From NCBI GenBank assembly GCA_003576805.1, contig QEVM01000030.1, forward strand, positions 1-32,466: a stretch of 32,466 nucleotides of DNA. The letters run 5' to 3'. A program made the position numbers and the translations under genes. Position 1 is the stretch's first letter, and every line of letters begins with the position of its first letter. Shown piece after piece: positions 1-11,075 of the stretch. Source of the stretch: Pseudomonadota bacterium (GTDB lineage: Bacteria; Myxococcota_A; UBA9160; PR03). Under the pieces are notes generated by a model. The model did not search any database, was not told the origin of the DNA, and saw nothing but the letters and a program-made list of their open reading frames with translations.

Positions 1-47
1 CGCCGCCAAGCCTCCGACGCAAACGTCCTCTGATGAGCCACGTCATC

Positions 48-84
48 CCCCCCGGCTCTCTTCTACCATGCCGGGCGGCTTTTT
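48..84 (+). terminator. Intrinsic terminator, + strand
   Basis: A GC-rich stem pairs 48-56 with 70-78, with 8 of 9 positions matching. It encloses a 13-nt loop and is followed by C and five T residues (80-84). It would end a + strand transcript entering from left of the window. It also argues against starting the next gene at the ATG at 68, which lies in the loop. Confidence 0.55.
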
Positions 85-148
85 CAGAGGTTCCCTAGGG
101 GACGAGCGGCCCCGGTACAATCAGCACCGGCCGTCCGGAGGGAGTCGC

Positions 149-886
149 ATGTACGAAGTCGTGGGGGCGTATGCTGTCGCGAAGATCGCCGACAAGCTCA
201 TCGAGGACTTCGCCGGCAGCGTCGTAGAGCGATGGTCCCGCTACCGGGCGCGGCGCTTCATCAACGCATTGGCGAGCGGTATCGCCCAGGGCGCCATCGG
301 CGAAGCGGAAGTCCGAGAGCGAATCGACAAGACGCTCGCCGACGAGAAGAAGTCGGAGGCGCTCTTCGAGGCGTACCGCCGCGTATGCCTCGCTGCATCC
401 CGCGATGTTGGTCCTCGAGTGATCGGCTTTCTCATGGCCAAGCTCCTCGCGGAAGGTCGGACGGCCTCCGACCACGAGGAGCGCCTCATGATGGCTGCCG
501 AGACTCTGACGGACGGAGAATTCCAGGCGTTCGTGGGATTCCTGCACAAGCTGAATGCAGCGGACTCCGACCCGAAGACACGTGACTCGACTATCTGGAT
601 CGAGCAGCATTGGGAGACCGTGGACGACAGCGGCTTGAGTCGCGGTGGAATCGACCTCGCCCCTCTTAACCTCGCCGATTCGCACGGCACGTGGGCGCTC
701 AAGCTCGCCGCCGCCGGGATTCTCGCGCAGCAGGTCCGGCAGACCCACCATCCCTATCACGCAGACTCCGATCGGCACATTGACGAGGATGGCGTGACGA
801 TCAAGTACACCTGGTACGTCGGAGCAGATCGCGCGTTTGCGGGATTCCTCGATTTGCTCGACGTGGCGTCGCGCACGGACGAGTAG
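149..886 (+). CDS. Hypothetical protein, possible cargo gene of the element
   Basis: This 245-aa protein is not recognised. The ATG at 149 was chosen because GGAGGGAG lies 4 nt upstream, while the earlier in-frame ATG at 68 sits inside the terminator hairpin. The N-terminus is a weakly hydrophobic helix (MYEVVGAYAVAKIADKLIEDF). Residues 25-140 are charged and predicted helical, with an acidic stretch around DHEERLMMAAETLTDGEF. The C-terminal third is richer in aromatic and histidine residues. I see no signal peptide, zinc ligands or nucleotide-binding loop. It is monocistronic, runs opposite to the other element genes and looks less GC-rich than the host region. That setting is typical of accessory 'moron' genes, including some defence genes, but no motif supports a particular function. 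Confidence 0.75.
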   Translation: MYEVVGAYAVAKIADKLIEDFAGSVVERWSRYRARRFINALASGIAQGAIGEAEVRERIDKTLADEKKSEALFEAYRRVCLAASRDVGPRVIGFLMAKLLAEGRTASDHEERLMMAAETLTDGEFQAFVGFLHKLNAADSDPKTRDSTIWIEQHWETVDDSGLSRGGIDLAPLNLADSHGTWALKLAAAGILAQQVRQTHHPYHADSDRHIDEDGVTIKYTWYVGADRAFAGFLDLLDVASRTDE

Positions 887-995
887 CAAGCGGCCTTACC
901 CGGGCCTTCCTAGCGCATCTCGGATGTGAGAATCCGATTCGGGATGGCTGGCGTTCGGAGCGCAGACGTGCGGTCTTCCGATCCGCTGGGTCGCG

Positions 996-1457
996 TCAGC
1001 CCTCGGGCCCGACCAGCTCCACCCGCTCGCGACGGCGCAGCAGCTCGACGAACGCGGGCTCGCGCTCGATCAGGAGCCGGCGGTACGCCTGCTCGACCGT
1101 CTCGTCCTCGCCGCGCGCGTCCGCGGCCATCCCCTCCAGCTTCACGTCGATGTCGTGCAGCGTCATGGGCTGCTGCGCGGCGTCGCGCGCCGCGGCGTCG
1201 CGCTCGGCGCGGTCGCGGAGCGACGTGTTTCGGAGTCGCTCGGCGGCGCGCTCCTCCGGGCTGGATTCGAGGGCCGGCACCGCCGGGTCGTCGGCGCCCA
1301 GGGAGGCGAGCGCGGGCGGCATCGCGATGTCGTCGCGCTTCATCATGACCGCGACCGCGCCGCGCTGCGCGGGGCGATCCACCGCGGCCAGCTCGTCGAT
1401 CTTGAACTCCTTCATGACCCGGCGCCTTCGCGCGGAGCTACTCGCGTGATGCGACAC
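996..1457 (-). CDS. Phage-associated small protein with VDRPAQ motif
   Basis: This 153-aa protein is the last gene of the five-gene leftward cassette. The GTG at 1457 is preceded by a strong GGGAGGAGA and overlaps the upstream gene by 20 nt, which decides the start over the ATG at 1415. Residues 19-31 read KIDELAAVDRPAQ and are followed within ten residues by MMKR. I associate this 'IDE-x-x-x-VDRPAQ...MKR' signature with uncharacterised proteins in the head-morphogenesis regions of alphaproteobacterial prophages; that is recollection, not a search result. Residues 116-143 (GEDETVEQAYRRLL...) match a motif that occurs twice in the protein encoded at 1902-2378. The middle is Arg/Ala/Glu-rich and probably helical. 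A structural or scaffolding role is inference. Confidence 0.75.
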   Translation of the reverse strand: MSHHASSSARRRRVMKEFKIDELAAVDRPAQRGAVAVMMKRDDIAMPPALASLGADDPAVPALESSPEERAAERLRNTSLRDRAERDAAARDAAQQPMTLHDIDVKLEGMAADARGEDETVEQAYRRLLIEREPAFVELLRRRERVELVGPEG

Positions 1458-1899
1458 GTCTCTCCTCCCGCCTGCGCTCGTTTCGCTCGAACTGCTCCTG
1501 GTCGAAGTCTTCCCAGCGCTCCGCCAGCTCGACCAGGGACGTGGTCATGTGCCTGCCCCACGGCGTGAACAGATCCGCGCGGACGCGGTCCTCGCCGTAG
1601 AGCGTGACGCAGCGAAGCGTCTCCGCGTCCGGGACGAGCAGCGCGACGCCCGCCTGCTCGACGGGGGCGAACTTGAACTGCCAGGCGTAGTGCCGCGGCT
1701 CCTGATCTCGAAGGCGCAGCTCGCCGCGCGCGAGCGCGATGAGCGGGTAGGTGTTGCAGTCCTCCTCGTCCTCGGCGATGCGGGCCAGCGCGCGCACGCT
1801 CGGCCAGCGGCCGGTCTCGTCGCGCGTGCGACGCGCGTGCGCGTAGGCGTGCAGAGTGCCGGGCAGCAGCATCTCCAGCGGACGGAGGTCGAGCGACAC
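1438..1899 (-). CDS. Hypothetical protein of the small-gene cassette
   Basis: This 153-aa protein is unrecognised. It starts with GTG at 1899, only 2 nt after the stop of the upstream gene, so translation is probably coupled. It looks like a mixed alpha/beta globular domain in residues 1-125 and ends in a highly charged helix (residues 128-153, rich in Glu and Arg). No transmembrane segment, cysteine cluster or catalytic motif is visible. Its 3' end overlaps the start of the next gene by 20 nt. Position in the cassette is the only clue to its role. Confidence 0.7.
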   Translation of the reverse strand: MSLDLRPLEMLLPGTLHAYAHARRTRDETGRWPSVRALARIAEDEEDCNTYPLIALARGELRLRDQEPRHYAWQFKFAPVEQAGVALLVPDAETLRCVTLYGEDRVRADLFTPWGRHMTTSLVELAERWEDFDQEQFERNERRREERRVASRE

Positions 1900-1901
1900 G
1901 G

Positions 1902-2378
1902 CTACGCTGCCTGCTCGTAGCGCTGGTGCATCGCGGCCAGCGCGGCGTCGCCGTCGAGAAGCAGCCGCCCCATCGCCGCCTCGACGCTCTCGTCCGCGCG
2001 CTTCAGCGCCTTCGTGTACGTCTGCATCGCGTCGTAGATCGCGGCGCGCGGGCCGGTCGACTTCACGATGGGCGACTCGGCCGCGTGCCGCTCGCGCAGC
2101 GCTGCGAGCTTCGCGACCTCGCGCTGGCGCGCGTCGCGCAGCTCGATCGTCTCGGCGACGTACAGCGCGCGGGCCAGCTTTGAGAGCCGCTCGTCGCGGT
2201 CGGTGTGCAGCCGGCTGAGGCTCGCACCAACGGATTCGCCGGCTCGCTTCTCACTTTCCGCCAGCGCCAGCATGCACTCCTCGTAGTCGCGCGCGGCGAA
2301 GCGCGGCGTCGCGCCGTTCGTCGACTTCGCGACGCGGTCCGCGTCGCCGAGCACATCGTCGAGATTCGGTTCCGTCAC
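1902..2378 (-). CDS. Hypothetical helical protein with two internal motif repeats
   Basis: This 158-aa protein starts with GTG at 2378, preceded by GGAGG about 9 nt upstream; the start overlaps the upstream stop as GTGA. Two internal repeats are visible. Residues 46-73 (AGESVGASLSRLHTDRDERL) and 128-155 (ADESVEAAMGRLLLDGDAAL) share the pattern E-S-V-x-x-(A/S)-x-x-R-L. A third copy is in the protein encoded at 996-1457. The rest is charged and helical. Repeats of this general look occur in small uncharacterised prophage proteins, so I infer a phage-related origin. Biochemical function is unknown. Confidence 0.75.
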   Translation of the reverse strand: MTEPNLDDVLGDADRVAKSTNGATPRFAARDYEECMLALAESEKRAGESVGASLSRLHTDRDERLSKLARALYVAETIELRDARQREVAKLAALRERHAAESPIVKSTGPRAAIYDAMQTYTKALKRADESVEAAMGRLLLDGDAALAAMHQRYEQAA

Positions 2379-2959
2379 GCTGCGGTGCCTCCAAGAGTCG
2401 CGGTTTCGGCAGTGACCAGGGGACGGACGTGCGCCGCGACCGTCGGGCGTCCCAAGCCCAGGGCGCGCGCGAGCGCCGGGCTCGCGTGCCAGACGGCGCG
2501 CTCGATCGCGGCACCCGAGCGCCGGGCGAGCATCGTCGCAGGGACGTCGCGTCCGGCGGCGCGGAGCACGGCCTCCAGCGCGGCGCCGGACCGCTCGTGC
2601 TCTTCGAGCGCGGCAGCCAGCTCGGTCAGCGCGGCGTCGACGCGCGCAGCGGCGTGCAGCCGGTCGCGGATCAGGTCGTCTGCCTCGCGGCCGGCGGCGG
2701 CGCGGCGCTCGGCGTCGACCGCGGCCCGGGCCTCGTCGACCCGCGCAGTCGCCACGGGAAGCGCGGCGAGCGCGTCGCTCCGGCGCTGCTCTGCGTCGGC
2801 GAGCTGGCGTCGCGCGCGCTCGGCGGCCAGATCGTCGCGTGCCTCCACGGCGAGGCCGAGAGCGCCTCGGGCCTCGGCCGCCTCGGCTTCGGCGTGGCTG
2901 ACCATCTCCTCGAGCTCCGCGCGCCGGGCCTCGGCGGCGGTGATCGCTTCGGTGTCCAT
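2375..2959 (-). CDS. Coiled-coil protein of the small-gene cassette
   Basis: The start is the ATG at 2959, with GGAGGA 7 nt upstream; it shares one base with the previous gene's stop codon (TGATG). The 194-aa product is dominated by a long Ala/Glu/Arg-rich coiled coil over about residues 5-135, with heptad-like hydrophobic spacing. A short globular C-terminus follows (around WHASPALARALGLGRPTVAAHVRP), which could form a small helix-turn-helix. Long coiled coils of this size are common in phage scaffolding or tape-measure-like proteins, but also in many unrelated proteins, so I leave the function open. The stop overlaps the next start by 4 nt. Confidence 0.75.
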   Translation of the reverse strand: MDTEAITAAEARRAELEEMVSHAEAEAAEARGALGLAVEARDDLAAERARRQLADAEQRRSDALAALPVATARVDEARAAVDAERRAAAGREADDLIRDRLHAAARVDAALTELAAALEEHERSGAALEAVLRAAGRDVPATMLARRSGAAIERAVWHASPALARALGLGRPTVAAHVRPLVTAETATLGGTAA

Positions 2960-3252
2960 CAGGGTTCCTCCAGCAGTCGCCAGCACTGCGGGCCGGCGAG
3001 CTCGATCTTCAGGCGGTGGCGACGAAGGTTCCCGACAACGTCGCGCAGGTGGTCGGCGGAGCGGAGCCGCAGCGCGCCTAGGTCGTCGACGCCGACCCCG
3101 CGCTCGCCGCGCTCCCGGAGCAGGGCGAGCACCCGGCCGCCGCTGCTCTCCGGCTCGACGCTATCGCCGGGCCTGCGCGTCGCGGTCGGGCACGGGAACG
3201 CGAAGCGACGCCTTCGCGTCCTGATCCGCTGCTCTCGCCTCGCCTGATCCAT
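2959..3252 (-). CDS. Small winged-helix-like protein, first gene of the cassette
   Basis: This 97-aa protein begins with an Arg-rich segment (MDQARREQRIRTRRRRFAF). Residues 38-95 then look like a winged helix-turn-helix: RVLALLRERG, a turn, LGALRLRSADHLRDVVGNLRRHRL as helices 2-3, and a short wing ending LAGPQCWRLLEE. It is the promoter-proximal gene of the leftward cassette, so it could regulate the cassette or act as a DNA-binding packaging or partition factor. No clear ribosome-binding site precedes the ATG at 3252. The upstream 179 bp must hold the cassette promoter, but I could not identify convincing -35/-10 boxes. Confidence 0.65.
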   Translation of the reverse strand: MDQARREQRIRTRRRRFAFPCPTATRRPGDSVEPESSGGRVLALLRERGERGVGVDDLGALRLRSADHLRDVVGNLRRHRLKIELAGPQCWRLLEEP

Positions 3253-3431
3253 CGCGCGAAGTCTCGGGCGTTGGGGGAGGCGACGACAATGGACCTTCGG
3301 ACCGTGAGTCCGGCGGTCGTGGTCTGCATCAACGTGTGGTTCCTCGATCTTTCGATCGCACGGGGATCGTCAAGAAGGCGGGAAGAAGGTGGCGCCCGCC
3401 TCGCATGCGAAGCGAGCGCCATCCGCCTCGG

Positions 3432-4301
3432 CTACGACGATTGGGATCTCTCGGTACGTGCCCGCTCCGCGACCGCTCTGCATCCATCGAGCACCGTGGC
3501 GCCAGCGGCCAGTCCCAGACGGGAGCGCGCCTTGCGCGGCAGGCGCTCCGCAAGCAGTCGGCGTGCGAACTCGACAACCTGGTCCACGGGCCGAATGCCA
3601 ATGAGCAGCTTCAGCAGCACGTCACCGAAGCCGGGCTCGGGTTCGGGCCCGCCGAGGATCCGCCATACATCAACCGCGCGTCGGGTGTCGCTCTCCTGGA
3701 GGGCGAAGATCGCGACACAGACGGCGCTGCTGCGCGCGACATCCCTGAAGTCGCGCTCCACGACAGGCGCCATGCGCGCCGCGGACCGCGGATTCGCGAG
3801 CAGCTCGAAGACTTGCTCCCAGGTGGCATCCGGTGGCGCGTCGGCAAGATCACGCGCGGTCACGGCCGCGGCATTGTGCAGCGAGCTCCCGCTCCGCTCA
3901 AAATCCTCGATGAGCTGATAGAGCGCCTCGCCGCCATGCACGGCGTGAATGCTCTTCCATTTGTCGAGGAGCCCTGAGAGCACGCGGAATCCATCCGCCC
4001 ACCGCGGCTGCGATGAGGACTGATCGCAGGGCGGAGGCCAGAGGTTGAGTGCGCACATCTGGTCCGCGCACAGCATCATGTCCATCAGTTCCTCATCGTT
4101 CTCAGGCATGCCGTGCTTTTTGAGAATCCCCACAGCAAGAACGAGATCGGATCGATACGCAGCCCACATGATCGCCTCGACCCACGCCCCCTTCGCGAGC
4201 ATTCGCCGGTACGGCTTGTCTCCATATCGCAACAGGATCCGTTCCAGGTCCAGGACACGAGCGGCCTCCGCTCCATGAACAGGTTCGATCACTTCCGACA
4301 A
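3432..4301 (-). CDS. Hypothetical protein, possible cargo gene
   Basis: The product is about 289 aa and unrecognised. The frame is open from a GTG at 4346. I prefer the TTG at 4301 because GGAGGGAG lies 8 nt upstream of it; a GTG at 4292 is another option. The protein looks fully helical, with repeated pieces such as RRMLAKGAWVEAIMWAAY, LYQLIEDFERSG and TWEQVFELLANPRSA suggesting a TPR- or HEAT-like solenoid, although no canonical repeat can be assigned. No transmembrane helix or catalytic motif is seen. It is monocistronic, separated by gaps on both sides, and looks less GC-rich than the host genes, consistent with cargo acquired by the element. Confidence 0.7.
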   Translation of the reverse strand: MSEVIEPVHGAEAARVLDLERILLRYGDKPYRRMLAKGAWVEAIMWAAYRSDLVLAVGILKKHGMPENDEELMDMMLCADQMCALNLWPPPCDQSSSQPRWADGFRVLSGLLDKWKSIHAVHGGEALYQLIEDFERSGSSLHNAAAVTARDLADAPPDATWEQVFELLANPRSAARMAPVVERDFRDVARSSAVCVAIFALQESDTRRAVDVWRILGGPEPEPGFGDVLLKLLIGIRPVDQVVEFARRLLAERLPRKARSRLGLAAGATVLDGCRAVAERARTERSQSS

Positions 4302-4977
4302 CGCACTTTCTCCCTCCGCACAAGCGAGCCCAACAACGCATCGCACGCGGCTCCGACTCGGCTCGCTGACTCCACTGCGAGTTGAGCAGATGAAGCGGCC
4401 TTCGACAGCAGGTGCAGATCACTTCTTGACGTTCTCTGGCAGAAGTGTGTCGGCAACGATCGAGCTAAGTGGACCACTAGTCCCTCACGCGGGCCATTCG
4501 TTGCCGGTCATCATTTTCTTTGGTGCGAGTCGATCAAGCTGCATCGAATCGATCGGAAATCGGGCCTTCCGATCCCCTTCGGATCTGCGATCCGCCGGGC
4601 AGCCGTCGTGTTCCGGTGTCGCGGCGCGGGTTTCGCCCAAGGGGCGGCTGGCGCGCAAGGTCCGAGGCAAGGCGGCGCCGCCCGATCGTCGCGCGGAGCC
4701 GTGCCTCGCGCGCGATCGCGCGGAGGGCCGGGCGGATGGGGCGGGGCGGCGCAGCGGCCTCGCGCTCGCGCGCCCAGGAGTCGCGAGCGGCTCGAAGGTC
4801 GGCTCGCCCACGGGCGCCGGCTGCTCGCGCGCGTGCGCGATCGCGAGGCGTCAGGACCGGTCAATCAGGACGGCGTGCAGCCCGCTCCGTCGTGGTCGCG
4901 CTCCCGCCGGTCGCGTCTGCGCGCGTAGGACTTAACGGAGCGCGCGGGCGGGGTGGGCCGCATACCAGCCCCACTAC
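4302..4977. other. Long non-coding stretch between cargo gene and iterons
   Basis: No frame here gives a convincing protein; the open frames on both strands are Arg/Ala/Pro-rich, as expected from GC-rich non-coding DNA. The part nearest the cargo gene (about 4385-4560) is less GC-rich and probably contains its promoter, though I found no clear promoter boxes. The part from 4600 to 4930 is extremely GC-rich with short inverted repeats. A degraded gene cannot be excluded. Confidence 0.5.
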
Positions 4978-5234
4978 AGGGTCGGTCAGGTCGGTCACAG
5001 GTCGGTCAGGGCGAAGTTCCCGCCCCTACACGACTTTGCCGACTTGACCGACCTAGAAGAAGAGGAGAGGTGGCAGCGCGGAATCGGCCTTCGGCCCGAG
5101 TTCGGTCCGCACCCCTGGGCTCCGTGAAAAACAGGTCGGCTAGGTCGGTCAGGTCGGCAGACCGCTGCAACGGCGCGGGGTTCCGCTTACCGACCCATGC
5201 TCGCAGGTCGGTAGGTGGTCGGCGCAGGTCGGTA
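4978..5234. repeat. Iteron array, probable replication origin (consensus AGGTCGGTC)
   Basis: About eleven copies of AGGTCGG(T/C) lie within 257 bp. Direct copies begin at 4978 (one extra G), 4988, 4999, 5133, 5142, 5151, 5205 and 5226. A variant AGGTGGTCGG starts at 5213. Inverted copies are at 5046-5054 and 5188-5196. Spacings of 10-11, 9 and 21 bp place many copies on one face of the helix. The array ends 3 bp beyond the primase-helicase gene's stop codon. In phage P4 and iteron plasmids, the replication initiator binds such repeats near its own gene. I infer that this is the element's origin and that the 860-aa protein recognises it. Confidence 0.7.
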
Positions 5235-5237
5235 CAC

Positions 5238-7820
5238 CTAGAAGTGGTCGTCGGCCGGGTGCGCGCCGACGGACTCGCCAAGCTGCCACTCGTCGGCGTC
5301 GCCCCATGCGTAGGCGAAGCGCGCCGTCCCCCAGCGCTCGCGTGCCTCGGGCAGCGCCGGGATCTCCCAGCCGCGCGGGCGGCCGTCGTCGCGCTTGGTG
5401 AAGCCCAGCACCTCGCCGAGCAGCGCCTGCACCTTGTTAGCTGTGATGTCGGCGCGGCGCGTCCGGCGCTCGATCTCCTCGAGGAGCTTCTTGGTCGGCA
5501 GCAGCACGGCGCCGCCGCCGAGCCAGCGCCCGGTCGGGAGCTCGCCGGTCTGAAGCATCTCGAACCAGACGCGCTCGACGGGCCGGCTCTGCAGGCTCGC
5601 GGCCTTCTGCCGAGCGAGGGCGGCGGTCTGCGGGATCTGATCGCGCGGGTGCCACTTGTCCAGCCGGAGGCCGAGCAGGTCGTGCAGCATCGCCGCGGCG
5701 CCGCCGCCGCGCATCTCGGCATCGATCGCGCCGAACCACGCCTTGTCCTGCTTGCGCTCGTCTGACGCGTCAAACACTGCGAAGCGTCGCTCGTCGAATC
5801 CAGCCGGGACGACCCAGTCGTCATTCGACGCCATGATCACGTGCAGGTGGTTCGGCGCCTCGATGAGGTCGCGGTTCTTGCCCTCAATCGGCAGCGTCGG
5901 CTCGGTCAGGAACCCCTTGAGCACGCCTTCCGCGGCGCGATCCTCGGGCGCGATCGCCTCGTCGGCGAAGAGCAGCGCGCAGTCACGAAGGTGCGCGTTG
6001 AAGTTCCCAACGAGATGCTTCGACGACATGATCTGCAGCCCGTGCTGCCCGAAGAGGTTCTTCACCCACCGAGCGAACGTGCCCTTGCCGGTGCCGCGCG
6101 CGCCTCGGAAGACAAGCGCCACCTCGGCCTGCCTCTCTGGGTTCTGAACCGCCCACGCGGCCCAGCGCATGATGTACCGGAACGCCGCGCGCTCGCGCCG
6201 CGCGAGAACAACCCAGATGTGTCGCTGCATCGCGCGCCAACTGCCTCGCGTCGGCTCGACTGCGAAACCACGCCAGAGGTTGAACACTCCCTCCGGCGCT
6301 TCCCGACCCGGCAGGAAGTCGATCTGCCGGTACTGGCGGCGGTCCGAATGCTCAAGCCACCAGTCGCCGAGCCGTCGAAACTTCGGATTGCCGTTCTTGT
6401 CCCTCCCGGCCTCGATCTGGCGATTCATGAATCGATTGCGGAAGTCGGGGAACGACTGGAGAACGAGCTCCTGCCGCACCTGACGCTCCTCGTATGCCTT
6501 CTCTCGGAAGAAGGCGACGCGGCACTTCGCCCCCTCGTCCTCCACGACGAAGAACTTCGAATTCATCTCTTCTAGGAGAGGTTCGGCCGCGGCTGCCTTC
6601 GCCTGCGCGATCTGGCGTAGCGCGTACTTCTCGGCGCGCGGGCCCTTGTCCAGGACGGAGGCGCTGATGCCGAACGCCTCGTCCATGACGATGCTGTACA
6701 TGACGTCATCGGGGACGCCGCAGCGGGCGAGGTTGCACAGCGCGTCGAATAGCCACGCGGAGCGCGAGTCGTCGCCCTGCTTTGGGCCCTCGAGCCCGCG
6801 GTTGTCGCCCTGGACGATGATGACCTTGACGCGCTCGGGCACGCCCCAGCGGTCGAGCTCGTTGGTGTCGGCGATCTTGTTCGGCGTGCCGGAGATCTGG
6901 ACCGGGGCCGCGCTGCTGCTGGGCTTCGTCTCCATCGCGGCCGTGAACTGTGAGAGGTCGTAGACTCGATCCTCATGCCACTCGACCAGCTTCGCGACCG
7001 TCGGCACGCGACCCTTCCTGAGCTTCACCTTGTCGGGCACGTTGATCGTTCCCGGCAGGCGCATGATCCTGTCGACGTTGTGGCAGTGGTCACCTCCGAA
7101 CGCCAACTCCAGCGTCAGATTGAAGCGCTTTGCTTCCTCCGCCTTCGCTAGATCGCCCTCGATCAGCAGCGGCTCGCTCAGCTTCCAGAAGCCCTGGTAT
7201 CCGCCGCCGCTGAACACGATCACGGTGGGCGGTGGGATGCGGTCCGGCGGATTGCGCAACATCGCGAGCGCGCGGTTCTGCTCCGCTTCGATGTCCTCGC
7301 CCGCGCGCGGGTCGATGTCGACGTGCAGCCAGTCGAGCGCCGCCACATCCTCGCGGTCCGCCTTCTTGGTCAGCCGCCGCGTGGCGGAGTTGACCATGAA
7401 GTAGATGTTGCGGGTGCCGTTGTGGCGCTCGACCCACTCGGCGAGCCGATCGCGCTTGGTCGCGTCGAACGTCGTCGTCTCGATCGACTTCTTGTCCGTG
7501 CTGATCGCCGTGGCCGCCCAGGGGCCGCCGGGCCGCCAGCGCTCCAGGAAGTCGAGCGCCGCGCCTGTGTCGCCGCGCGGCTCTTCGGTCGGCGGCGGTT
7601 CGGTCACGGGCTCGGGCACGGTCGCGTCGGCGTCGCTTCGCAGCTCTGCCGTCGCGCTCGCCTGCTCCGCGTCGGCGATCTTGCGGTGCAGAGAACTCGC
7701 CTTCAGGAGGTCCACGTCGTCCACGCGCCCAGCGGTCGGTGAAGTGACGCACTTCTGCTCCGCGATTCGCTGCTCGATCTCCGCGAGCTCCTCGCGCAGG
7801 CGGTCGAGGTCCGCGCTCAT
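5238..7820 (-). CDS. Primase-helicase: AEP-type primase fused to DUF5906-like ATPase
   Basis: This 860-aa replication protein starts at the ATG at 7820, overlapping the upstream stop as ATGA; an extension to 7868 is less likely. Residues 1-60 form a short coiled coil. Residues 85-290 resemble an archaeo-eukaryotic primase/polymerase: metal-binding VDID at 167-170, SGGGYQGFW at 204-212, and HNVDRIMRLPGTIN at 247-260. Residues 560-720 form a P-loop ATPase of the phage helicase type: Walker A GARGTGKG 573-580, Walker B LLFADEA 616-622, sensor ASND 664-667 and arginine-finger candidate DERR 676-679. The C-terminus may hold a winged helix. The architecture resembles P4 alpha and NrS-1-type phage proteins, so it probably initiates element replication. 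Whether it extends DNA as well as priming is unknown. Confidence 0.9.
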   Translation of the reverse strand: MSADLDRLREELAEIEQRIAEQKCVTSPTAGRVDDVDLLKASSLHRKIADAEQASATAELRSDADATVPEPVTEPPPTEEPRGDTGAALDFLERWRPGGPWAATAISTDKKSIETTTFDATKRDRLAEWVERHNGTRNIYFMVNSATRRLTKKADREDVAALDWLHVDIDPRAGEDIEAEQNRALAMLRNPPDRIPPPTVIVFSGGGYQGFWKLSEPLLIEGDLAKAEEAKRFNLTLELAFGGDHCHNVDRIMRLPGTINVPDKVKLRKGRVPTVAKLVEWHEDRVYDLSQFTAAMETKPSSSAAPVQISGTPNKIADTNELDRWGVPERVKVIIVQGDNRGLEGPKQGDDSRSAWLFDALCNLARCGVPDDVMYSIVMDEAFGISASVLDKGPRAEKYALRQIAQAKAAAAEPLLEEMNSKFFVVEDEGAKCRVAFFREKAYEERQVRQELVLQSFPDFRNRFMNRQIEAGRDKNGNPKFRRLGDWWLEHSDRRQYRQIDFLPGREAPEGVFNLWRGFAVEPTRGSWRAMQRHIWVVLARRERAAFRYIMRWAAWAVQNPERQAEVALVFRGARGTGKGTFARWVKNLFGQHGLQIMSSKHLVGNFNAHLRDCALLFADEAIAPEDRAAEGVLKGFLTEPTLPIEGKNRDLIEAPNHLHVIMASNDDWVVPAGFDERRFAVFDASDERKQDKAWFGAIDAEMRGGGAAAMLHDLLGLRLDKWHPRDQIPQTAALARQKAASLQSRPVERVWFEMLQTGELPTGRWLGGGAVLLPTKKLLEEIERRTRRADITANKVQALLGEVLGFTKRDDGRPRGWEIPALPEARERWGTARFAYAWGDADEWQLGESVGAHPADDHF

Positions 7821-8065
7821 CGGCCGACCCCCTCGTCGCGCCGCGGCGCCTGGTGCTCCCGCATCCACTGATTCAGGTCCGTGCGCGAGTAGCGAATGAT
7901 CCGACCCACGCGCGTGTAGGGCGGACCTTGCCCGCGCGAGCGCCAGATCTCAAGTCGGGGAACGGAGAGGGAGAGGTACGCGGCGGCCTGCCGCGTGTTC
8001 AGGAACTCGACCGGCGACCCGCGCAGCGCGCGTTCGATCGCCTCTTCAATCTCGTTGGCGTCCAT
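7817..8065 (-). CDS. AlpA/excisionase-like helix-turn-helix protein
   Basis: The start chosen is the ATG at 8065, with GGAG about 10 nt upstream; the frame stays open to 8107. The 82-aa product contains a MerR-like HTH of the excisionase/AlpA type: FLNTRQAAAYLSLSVPRLEIW (about residues 21-41), then a wing with YTRVGRIIRYSRTDLNQWM. In P4-like elements AlpA activates integrase expression, and Xis proteins bend attachment-site DNA for excision. The gene is directly upstream of the primase-helicase, overlaps it by 4 nt (ATGA), and is surely co-transcribed with it. Whether it acts as excisionase, transcriptional regulator or both cannot be told from sequence. Confidence 0.85.
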   Translation of the reverse strand: MDANEIEEAIERALRGSPVEFLNTRQAAAYLSLSVPRLEIWRSRGQGPPYTRVGRIIRYSRTDLNQWMREHQAPRRDEGVGR

Positions 8066-8117
8066 GACAGCCAGCTCCGGAGTTGGCGCTGGCACCTCGA
8101 CACACATCGACAGGCGC

Positions 8118-8134
8118 CAGCGTGGTTAACGCTG
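8118..8134. promoter_or_regulatory. Inverted repeat, candidate operator upstream of alpA-like gene
   Basis: CAGCGT-GGTTA-ACGCTG is a 6-bp inverted repeat with a 5-nt centre, about 53 bp upstream of the AlpA-like start codon. A related GCGCTGG lies at about 8087. Autoregulator binding is possible but inferred only from position. Confidence 0.3.
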
Positions 8135-8372
8135 AGTCCCGTCGATCCCCGGAAGCTCCGGCTAGGGTGGCTACGTATCGAGCGGCGCTCGTGTCCGGAC
8201 TGCGACCGGCATCGGTGAGTCACGCCTCCTGCGAGGCGGATCGCGCTCCGAGCGAGCGACCAATCTCCTTCAGAGCGGTCGTTCCCGCAATACCTCGATG
8301 CACACGCAGGCATTTCGATTTCGCCTTCGCGCGCGGCCGGTATCGTTCGCGCACAAGCTCAGCTCCGAGCGA

Positions 8373-8415
8373 CCCCGCCCGCTGGCCCTCGCGCCTCGGG
8401 CGGGGTTTCTTTCTT
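8373..8415 (+). terminator. Orphan + strand intrinsic terminator
   Basis: An 8-bp perfect GC stem (CCCCGCCC 8373-8380 with GGGCGGGG 8398-8405) is followed by TTTCTTTCTT. The neighbouring genes run on the minus strand, where no T-tract follows the hairpin, so it serves a + strand transcript. No + strand protein gene ends here. Confidence 0.6.
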
Positions 8416-8715
8416 CGACGACGCGCGCGTGCGGCCCGGAGTTGCGCGCTCGCTCGGAACTTCATGACGGGCGCGCGAGTCCCGTCGACACAGACTTCGA
8501 TCGGGCCGGGGCGCGCCTTCCTCGACCCCGGCCGCGTGCCCGCCAGCCGGGCTATGGCGGCACGTCGGCCGGCCCGCTCGCGCCATCTCTTCCGGCGCGG
8601 GCGGGCGACCGGCCTTCCCCGACGCCTTGCTTGGGCCCAGGGGCGACGCCGAAGTACGCGGCTCGACTGCGCAACGGTGACCGTACGCGCGGTCTATGCA
8701 GCCGCGCGAGCGCGA

Positions 8716-9612
8716 TCACGCCTCGAAGAGCACATCCTCATGCGCTTCGAGTGGTACTTCGACGCGAAGCCGGAGGATCGAGCCATCAGCACCGCGTCCC
8801 ACGATTCGAGACTCCGCCGGAGGCGACGCAGCGAAGATGGCGTCGATTGGTGCCCTGTCCCCCGCGAATCCGATGACGCGCAGGTTGTGATTCCACTCTA
8901 CGGCCCACGACCAACACGTTGCTTCGGGGTGCCTGCGGATCACAGCCTTAAAGAATCTGTCGGCAGCGATCGCGACGCAGCGAGGCTCCCATCCCGACAC
9001 GCCGTGCATGAATGCACGATGCATCGCATTTCCCCAATCTCCGCGCAGGCAATAGGAGATCGTGTAGACGTCTCCCAGAAAGAATCCACCCCGACGCGTA
9101 CTGGCGTCGTAGGTGACGCGGTAGAAAAGAGCTTGCGCGTGCATCCTCGCAAGCTCGAACACACGATCTGGATCTGGCTGCGGTGGCCCGTTCAGTGTGA
9201 ACGAGGCGTTGACGCCCGGCATCGGGGCAAGGGCGATCGTCATCGTATGTGCGCTCTCTCCCACAGTCGTGCCGGTTCGACGGTTGATGCTTCCGGCGGC
9301 CTTGCGCATCGCCTCCTCACGAAGCACGGGGTCGGGATCAGCGAACTCGCCCGTCGGATCGGGCTGCATCGTGATCGCGGAGAGATCGTCCTCTAGATCC
9401 GCCTTCCGCGAGTTGCACGTGATGCATGCCCGCAGGATCAGATTCCAGCTATCCGCGAACTTGCCGCGCGGCACGAATCGGCGCCCGATCGCGTGCTCCT
9501 TGTTCCAACTACCCTCAACGAGCTGCGCCCCGCAGTAGGGGCAGTTCTCGTTGTCGAGCACGATCGCCTTGCGAGGCGGAAGCTCGGTTAGGGCTGTGGA
9601 GTCAATGCTCAT
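8716..9612 (-). CDS. HNH-type zinc protein, putative endonuclease
   Basis: This 298-aa protein starts at the ATG at 9612; the frame is open to 9672, overlapping the integrase end. The N-terminal region carries a zinc-bound HNH signature: C24-P-Y-C27, E39-H40, N57 and C63-I-T-C66-N67 followed by SRKADLEDD. This matches the CxxC...H...N...CxxCN layout of HNH nucleases. The remaining 220 residues are unrecognised, with an aromatic central domain (about residues 150-250). It lies 34 nt downstream of the integrase reading frame in the same direction, so the two may share a transcript. Possible roles include element processing, packaging-related cleavage or defence against competitors. Nuclease activity is predicted only from the motif. 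Confidence 0.8.
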   Translation of the reverse strand: MSIDSTALTELPPRKAIVLDNENCPYCGAQLVEGSWNKEHAIGRRFVPRGKFADSWNLILRACITCNSRKADLEDDLSAITMQPDPTGEFADPDPVLREEAMRKAAGSINRRTGTTVGESAHTMTIALAPMPGVNASFTLNGPPQPDPDRVFELARMHAQALFYRVTYDASTRRGGFFLGDVYTISYCLRGDWGNAMHRAFMHGVSGWEPRCVAIAADRFFKAVIRRHPEATCWSWAVEWNHNLRVIGFAGDRAPIDAIFAASPPAESRIVGRGADGSILRLRVEVPLEAHEDVLFEA

Positions 9613-9646
9613 GACGCGGCAGTGTAGAAGGCAAGTTCCTGCTGAT

Positions 9647-10890
9647 CTACTCGGCGTCTGCGCGCTTCTCAATCCACGCCACCAAGAACGCCGTGATCTT
9701 CTCCTGGCTCTCGCGCAGGTGCTCGACGCTCGGCCGCATGTAGCCCTCGGTCACGTCGGAGGAGGGCAGGGTGTGGTTCATGAGCATCTTGAGGTCGAGC
9801 AGCGGCACGCGCGACTCGTGCGCCGCGCTCGCGTAGGTGTCGCGAAGCCGGTGCGGCGACGGCACCCAGCGAACGCGCCGCGGCTTCTTCCCGGCCTCGC
9901 GAATCTCGCGGTAGACGTTCGGCTCCTGTAGCCACGTGACGACGCGGCGGTGGTCGCGCAGCGCGACGCACGGGAACACCCAGCCGTGGTCCCGCCCAGG
10001 GGCCCGAACTCGACGGCGCTCTCGGCGCGGCGCGCGCGCAACAACTCGATGCACCGCTTGGACAGCGGCACCGTGAACGCGCGATCGACGCCACCCTTGG
10101 GCTTCGGCCGGTGCACCGTCGCGGCGTCGAGGTCGACGTGCTCCCAGCGCACCGTCGCCGCGTCGGTCGCGCGCAGGCCGGTGAGCAGCACGAACAGGTG
10201 GTAGTCGCGGCGCACGGGGCTCAGCTCGAGGAGGCGCTCGTGCCAGAGCGGCAGCTCCGTCCAGGTGATCGGCTCGCGGCGGCGGCGCTGCTTGTTCCAG
10301 TCCACCGCGACGGTCGGCGCGCGTCCGGGCAGGTCGTGGACGCGGGCGGCCGTGTTGTAGAGCGTGCGCAGGTGGCGCAGCGCGCGATTCGCCGCGTAGA
10401 TCCCGCTGCGCTCGGTGAGCCGGTGGTGACGCCGACGGCACTCGTCGCGCGAGATCTCGGCGAGCGGCCGGTCGAGCCAGTCGCCCAGGTAGCGGGGGAT
10501 CTCGTAGGTCAGTGTCTCGATCGTGCGCGGGCTCGCGTCCTTTGCTCGCAGCCGCGTGAGGTGCATCTCCAGCGCCTGCCGGAGCGTGACGCCGCGGGCT
10601 GCTCGCGCGCGCTTCGTGACGGCCGGGTCCTCGCCCTTGTCGACGCGCACGGCGAGCGAGCGCGCCTCCTTGCGCGCCTCCTCCGGCGACCACGTCGGGT
10701 GACGCCCGATCGTCATGCGGCGCGTGCGCCTGCCCGGGAGGTCGCGCTGGAAGATGTACGTCTTCGTGTTGGGCCCGACGCGCAGGCCGAAGCCGCGCAT
10801 CTCGGTGTCCCAGAAGATCACCTGCCGCCTGTCAGCGCCGACCGCGCACTTCTCGACGCTCGCCTTCGTCAGCTTCAACTTAGCTGCCAC
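9647..10890 (-). pseudogene. Tyrosine integrase (DUF4102-type), broken by one frameshift
   Basis: The 5' part, from the GTG at 10890 (GGGAG about 5 nt upstream), encodes an arm-binding DUF4102-like domain (KLTKASVEK...GFGLRV...TYIFQ), a core-binding domain, and the catalytic domain up to LTGLRATDAATVRW with the first catalytic Arg. Around 9983-9995 the correct reading moves to another frame: one missing base turns the expected GGTTGWVFP into GGTTAGCSR. The 3' part, in the new frame, holds SPHRLRDTY (His-x-x-Arg), MNH, the nucleophile Tyr of EGYMRP, and the C-terminus ending at 9647. Rejoined length is about 414 aa, normal for the family. This is either a real inactivating mutation or an assembly or sequencing error. 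Its 5' end lies 140 bp from the tRNA remnant. Confidence 0.85.
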
Positions 10891-11029
10891 GCCCGCTCCC
10901 GAGGAAGGTCCGGAGTAAGGCGCCGGAGTACGGCACACACCGACCTTCGTAAAGACCCGACCTGACAATAATCGTGTGTCAGCGGCGAGTTACGGGCAAC
11001 GTATGGCGTGGTAAAAGAAGCAGACGTCC

Positions 11030-11075
11030 TTTCCTAAACCGCGTGTCGGAGGTTCGAGTCCTCTCGGGGGCGCCA
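11030..11075 (+). other. Attachment site: 3' remnant of tRNA-Arg(CCT)
   Basis: The sequence runs from the anticodon loop TTCCTAA (anticodon CCT, 11033-11035) through the 3' anticodon strand, the variable loop, a T-arm GGAGG-TTCGAGT-CCTCT, the 3' acceptor strand CGGGGGC, and an encoded CCA at 11073-11075. The 5' half is missing: the bases before the loop do not pair with ACCGC, and no GCCCCCG acceptor strand lies upstream. Tyrosine integrases commonly recombine in the anticodon loop, so this is the displaced 3' piece on the chromosomal side. The intact tRNA should sit at the element's other end, left of the window. Confidence 0.8.

Follow-up and report, generated by a model that had tools for sequence, protein, structure and literature searches.

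The locus raises the question of whether a cluster of short repeats behind a primase-helicase gene forms, together with that gene, a self-contained replication module. The window analysed is the whole contig (G000:C8, 32,466 nucleotides). Between positions 4979 and 5233 it holds 12 copies of a repeat with a GTCGG core, in both orientations (consensus AGGTCGGT; cores at 4979, 4988, 4999, 5038(-), 5047(-), 5133, 5142, 5151, 5189(-), 5205, 5216 and 5226); an off-core variant, AGTTCGGT, lies within the array at 5099. The sequence-only reading had reported about eleven AGGTCGG(T/C) repeats directly behind the gene, at helical spacing. Our count agrees with this, with at most one mismatch to the consensus in 10/12 copies and two in the other two; the spacings of 9, 11, 9, 9 and 21 bp were measured as it gave them, and the array begins 4 bp past the primase stop codon (TAG, 5240–5238; first repeat ending at 5233). 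Exact AGGTCGG occurs 8 times in 4975–5237 (2000 dinucleotide shuffles: mean 0.13, maximum 2) and forms the top 7-mer cluster of the entire window, where 24 copies are found versus 6.1 expected. The 16-mer AGGTCGGTCAGGTCGG, with up to two mismatches, clusters in the genome at this array only.

The array is built around two inner groups of opposite orientation, each with a 9-bp period: a pair on the minus strand (5038–5054) and a triplet on the plus strand, proximal to the primase stop (5133–5158). Together they create a 20-nt inverted repeat (5037–5056 and 5140–5159, 95% complementary) with arms 83 nt apart. The spacer between them (5055–5132, 78 bp) is weakly AT-rich (AT 0.36 versus 0.28 for the window), carries the purine run AGAAGAAGAGGAGAGG on the plus strand, and is a possible melting or loading site.

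The gene next to the array (5238–7820, minus strand) encodes an 860-aa AEP primase/SF3-AAA+ helicase, the proposed initiator. It matches DUF5906 (PF19263, E 8e–19, 68.7 bits versus a gathering score of 27.6) and the PHROG 1829 DNA primase family (E 8e–60). The frame is open across all 860 aa and every motif is present: the AEP motifs VDIDP (167), SGGGYQ (204) and DRIMRLPGT (250), and, as in DUF5906/SF3-AAA+ proteins, Walker A (573), Walker B (616) and the arginine pair. The best fold match of its AlphaFold2 model (mean pLDDT 89.6) is the NrS-1 phage helicase, which is the closest solved structure (6k9c) by sequence as well as by fold; several viral primase-helicases and SaPI5 PriRep1 follow. 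The initial comparison with P4-type elements is a loose one, as the protein scores 33.4 bits against the P4-family primase model TIGR01613 (cut-off 108.7 bits). The DUF5906 primases of Mesyanzhinovviridae phages, the NrS-1 helicase and SaPI5 PriRep1 are nearer. The C-terminal 126 residues form an independently folding unit of helices and beta strands (pLDDT 88), whose model recalls a winged helix. This does no more than suggest a DNA-binding fold, because a search of this part against the PDB gave no significant match, the weak ones including several winged-helix proteins.

An AlpA/HTH_17-like protein (PF12728, E 2e–10) is encoded immediately upstream on the same strand (7817–8064; the longest ORF reaches 8107). 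Its TGA (7819–7817) overlaps the primase ATG (7820–7818) as ATGA in the sequence ...CGATGAGC, in line with the translational coupling of the two genes that had been proposed. Given this overlap, the primase most likely starts at ATG 7820 (860 aa) rather than at the first GTG of the ORF (7868).

The window primase clusters with L040, L042, L043, L128 and L055 in the protein tree (support 0.68 with the window and 0.98 for the others). These five close relatives are 48–50% identical to the window primase and all have ACCGAC(C/T)T iterons; L040, at 50% identity, shares the same word, ACCGACCT. An integrase is found in the entire group except on the short contig L055. When the origins of the window, L040, L042, L043 and L128 are aligned, the order and orientations of the copies are identical, the inner triplet falling on its counterparts, and 43/88 columns are invariant within iterons versus 26/193 elsewhere; conservation extends to single iterons that are not part of the inverted repeat. 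Elsewhere in the tree the words differ (e.g. GGTTGGAC, GTGGGACA, TGTCCAGGG). The suggested new initiator/origin pair is therefore not a lone one, since five relatives share the iteron. Similarity of the repeat word tracks similarity of the protein (Mantel rho –0.29, P-value 0.0005). For the 29 proteins with all domains, tracking is strongest for the C-terminal part (–0.33), and its correlation persists after correction for the helicase part (–0.29, P-value 0.001). This co-divergence is correlative, along a tree, and does not prove contact.

The module sits in an integrated element. The attR site (11030–11075, plus strand) is the 3' part of tRNA-Arg(CCT) and is identical over 42 bp (11030–11071) to an intact tRNA on another contig of the assembly, C325. 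The far right flank of the window (from 20.3 kb) has its counterpart in genes beside this tRNA, on one side, in two relatives of the same family; one of the two, L039, also matches the upstream flank of C325 on the opposite side. From the tRNA core match and the synteny of both flanks, the element is thus composed of positions 1–3600 of C325 (L034) as its left part, a gap, and positions 1–11075 of the window as its right part. It is at least 14.7 kb long, with G+C mostly below that of the host flank. Padloc, run on the available ORFs, found no defence genes and returned one weak match to AlpA alone. Three tandem ORFs of ~153–158 aa with strong G+C codon bias (996–2378, minus strand) have no Pfam match above cut-off. 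Outside the element, the ~9 kb between attR and the first syntenic genes (11.1–20.3 kb) encode, among others, DUF218, PLP decarboxylase, lactonase-like and 1027-aa proteins; these genes are absent beside the tRNA in the two relatives, and the block is possibly a second insertion.

The tyrosine integrase of the element (9647–10968, minus strand; Arm-DNA-bind_3 plus catalytic domain) is split over two reading frames, one with the arm-binding and first catalytic part and the other with the HRLRDTY...EGYM part. At its start, near attR, there are two more AGGTCGG on the minus strand, 17 bp apart (10940–10963), which could be due to chance or could reflect a control link between initiator and integrase. 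The frameshift may be a real mutation or an error of a fragmented draft assembly (a MAG of 422 contigs), and because of it the element may be immobile. This counts against a working module: the element could be decayed, a remnant in which origin and initiator are still recognisable while excision and replication are lost. We consider such decay improbable. The broken integrase frame is consistent with it, as is the lack of packaging genes (no terminase, capsid or portal gene, and no relaxase gene either, was recognised in positions 1–3600 of C325 and 1–11075 of the window). However, the primase is open over its full length with all motifs, 10 good array copies are kept in a conserved layout, and the frameshift may itself be an assembly error.

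If the array were the origin used by this primase-helicase, homologous elements should carry one too, and their lack of repeats had been named as the observation that would speak against it. We surveyed 162 loci, counting the window, in which the sequence 3' of a homologous primase could be used; they were taken from genome contigs, viral contigs, phage records and plasmid records; single-sequence searches of the genome and viral contigs found no relatives, and an alignment query did. Under a strict definition, which asks for four or more occurrences of one 8-mer within 450 bp, an array is present in 51/90 loci without a phage-type PolA versus 0/71 with PolA. A looser score that allows one mismatch places an array at the same position in 62/91 loci without phage PolA versus 7/71 with it, and the remaining 29/91 loci, some of them short or with divergent repeats, show no clear array by this score. 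On this test the origin reading held up: integrative and plasmid homologues carry an array in the same place, and polymerase-carrying phage homologues are without the 9-bp array. Four PolA phage contigs (L151, L169, L170 and L174), which make up 4/7 of the polA loci passing the looser score, have CCCTGCC-type repeats 3' of the primase, unlike other phages.

A plain positional test at lag 9 is confounded by the codon period of 3, so we measured periodicity as lag 9 minus the mean of lags 6 and 12. The 9-bp excess in PolA-less loci is 0.051 ± 0.006 at 0–330 bp past the stop and at every other offset stays within –0.007 to 0.011; behind the primase stop of the 71 PolA phage loci there is no 9-bp period (excess –0.009). 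Neighbouring copies are most commonly spaced by 9 bp (159 cases), followed by 11 bp (22 cases). The copies that flank the spacer face opposite ways in 51/58 loci, and spacers of the relatives are mostly 70–115 bp. Over the locus set, spacers are significantly AT-rich compared with the locus (P-value 3e–7) but not compared with the iteron flanks. Of the array loci, 60 are in the tree, where they make up 42 groups at <70% protein identity. A blind DNA search of viral contigs for triple ACCGACYT returned 7 loci, none of them beside a primase and several resembling coding repeats. In the viral contig L201 (~4413), AGGTCGGTC repeats in 9-bp tandem face GACCTGACCG repeats across an AT-rich stretch, with no primase found nearby, and in the phage-like contig L025 (G059:C1) CAAAGACT words recur at gene junctions.

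Plasmid loci offer a natural experiment. A 9.7-kb Roseomonas plasmid (L022) encodes a DUF5906 primase followed by ten copies of TCCAGGGT in 9-bp steps and two groups, and Pfam recognised no other replication protein on it. Arrays also lie behind the primase genes of pMP1 of Vibrio vulnificus (L024) and pMNOD07 (L023). Circular plasmid records must replicate somehow, so gene and array are likely the replicon of these plasmids. A second repeat cluster of pMP1, of AACTGTACC type and far from the primase (6573–6814), is perhaps a partition or second control site. The repeats could alternatively be operators for AlpA or another DNA-binding regulator of transcription or excision, and not an origin. 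AlpA is indeed encoded in the primase operon, and in satellites proteins of the AlpA type target promoters or att sites (PMC10803314, PMC10111431). We regard this as very unlikely: the array is at the 3' end of the operon and not at the alpA promoter or the att site, arrays are present in L022 and L024 with no detectable integrase or AlpA, and the partner that stays the same from locus to locus is the primase-helicase, whose C-terminal part the repeat sequence tracks. An origin function residing in a stem-loop 3' of the gene, with the repeats secondary, is likewise very unlikely: the inner arrays do form an inverted repeat, and a stem-loop downstream of the primpol gene has been proposed for pRN1-type replicons and is used by pRN1, which requires 166 bp of downstream sequence in addition to its repressor-primpol operon (PMC4234260), but opposed iterons create an inverted repeat as a by-product, the single iterons outside it are conserved too, and a stem-loop does not need direct 9-bp spacing.

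We compared the locus with known systems. PICIs of the GP and GN types have an origin with two iteron sets directly 3' of the initiator gene, and cloned pri-ori is able to replicate (PMC6092414). The window element shares with GN-PICIs (e.g. EcCICFT073; PMC6092414) two iteron sets around a spacer, a predicted origin immediately 3' of the primase gene, and an integrase and AlpA, with int and alpA upstream of the primase in the same direction and int reading inward from att. It differs in its weakly AT-rich spacer, host lineage and tRNA-Arg site, and has no demonstrated helper, packaging or interference genes. PICMIs and GN-PICIs have int, alpA and primase in common, DUF5906 being among the primase/replication markers (PMC10803314, PMC10111431), and the order int-alpA-prim-ori seen here matches both. 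Like PICMI satellites (PMC10803314), the element has int, AlpA (PF12728) and a DUF3987/DUF5906-type primase together on one strand; unlike them, it is larger (at least 14.7 kb) and its att site is in tRNA-Arg(CCT), not next to fis.

Self-loading initiators are represented by SaPI5 PriRep1 and SCCmec Cch2 (7ola, 7pds; PMC7581432). PriRep1 matches the helicase fold of the window protein, at 13% identity in the fold alignment. Cch2 recognises direct repeats that lie past the end of its gene, and for this binding the isolated C-terminal domain is enough (PMC7581432); downstream repeats are common to Cch2 and the window, whereas C-terminal-domain binding is a feature of Cch2, whose site has three 5-nt iterons. 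NrS-1 PrimPol (6k9c) likewise combines AEP and SF3 helicase, but belongs to a phage and uses two single 8-nt sites and no array (PMC7102993). DNA primases of Mesyanzhinovviridae (Ab18, PaMx11, MW2) are 42–46% identical to the window protein and have a small upstream gene, annotated as a repressor in Ab18 and MW2; these phages, however, have their own DNA polymerase and no 9-bp array behind the gene.

The locus is best read as a PICI/PICMI-like module whose iteron is specific to its clade. Judging from the sequence, the array is very probably the replication start of the element, bound by the primase-helicase. We are fairly sure that the two serve an integrative element as its self-contained replication module, in which the protein would load at its own 3' iterons and a host polymerase would continue. 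We infer that the primase-helicase binds the AGGTCGGT iterons just past its own gene, and that the two opposed groups of 9-bp-spaced copies, ~80 bp apart, load two helicase rings facing each other. These rings would open the DNA in between and prime synthesis, the remaining replication being left to the host polymerase, and AlpA, produced from the same message, may couple excision to replication.

PICIs already provide established examples of an initiator followed by a 3' iteron origin (PMC6092414). What is added here is a 9-bp dyad grammar found across many lineages and absent in polymerase-carrying phages; in the literature searched, in which subscription journals were thinly covered, this pattern was not described for DUF5906 elements. 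We lean towards the view that DUF5906 primase-helicases generally have the 9-bp dyad iteron origin as their cis partner, across integrative elements and small plasmids from several bacterial phyla, with one word per initiator clade that would be read by the C-terminal domain, and with no array where the element has its own DNA polymerase. If so, nature would offer a large set of matched initiator/origin pairs. The window itself provides a concrete, testable pair from an uncultured-type draft genome, and the survey yields ~42 divergent initiator/iteron pairs with one common geometry, which makes both the origin reading and the co-evolution of self-loading helicases with their iterons directly testable.
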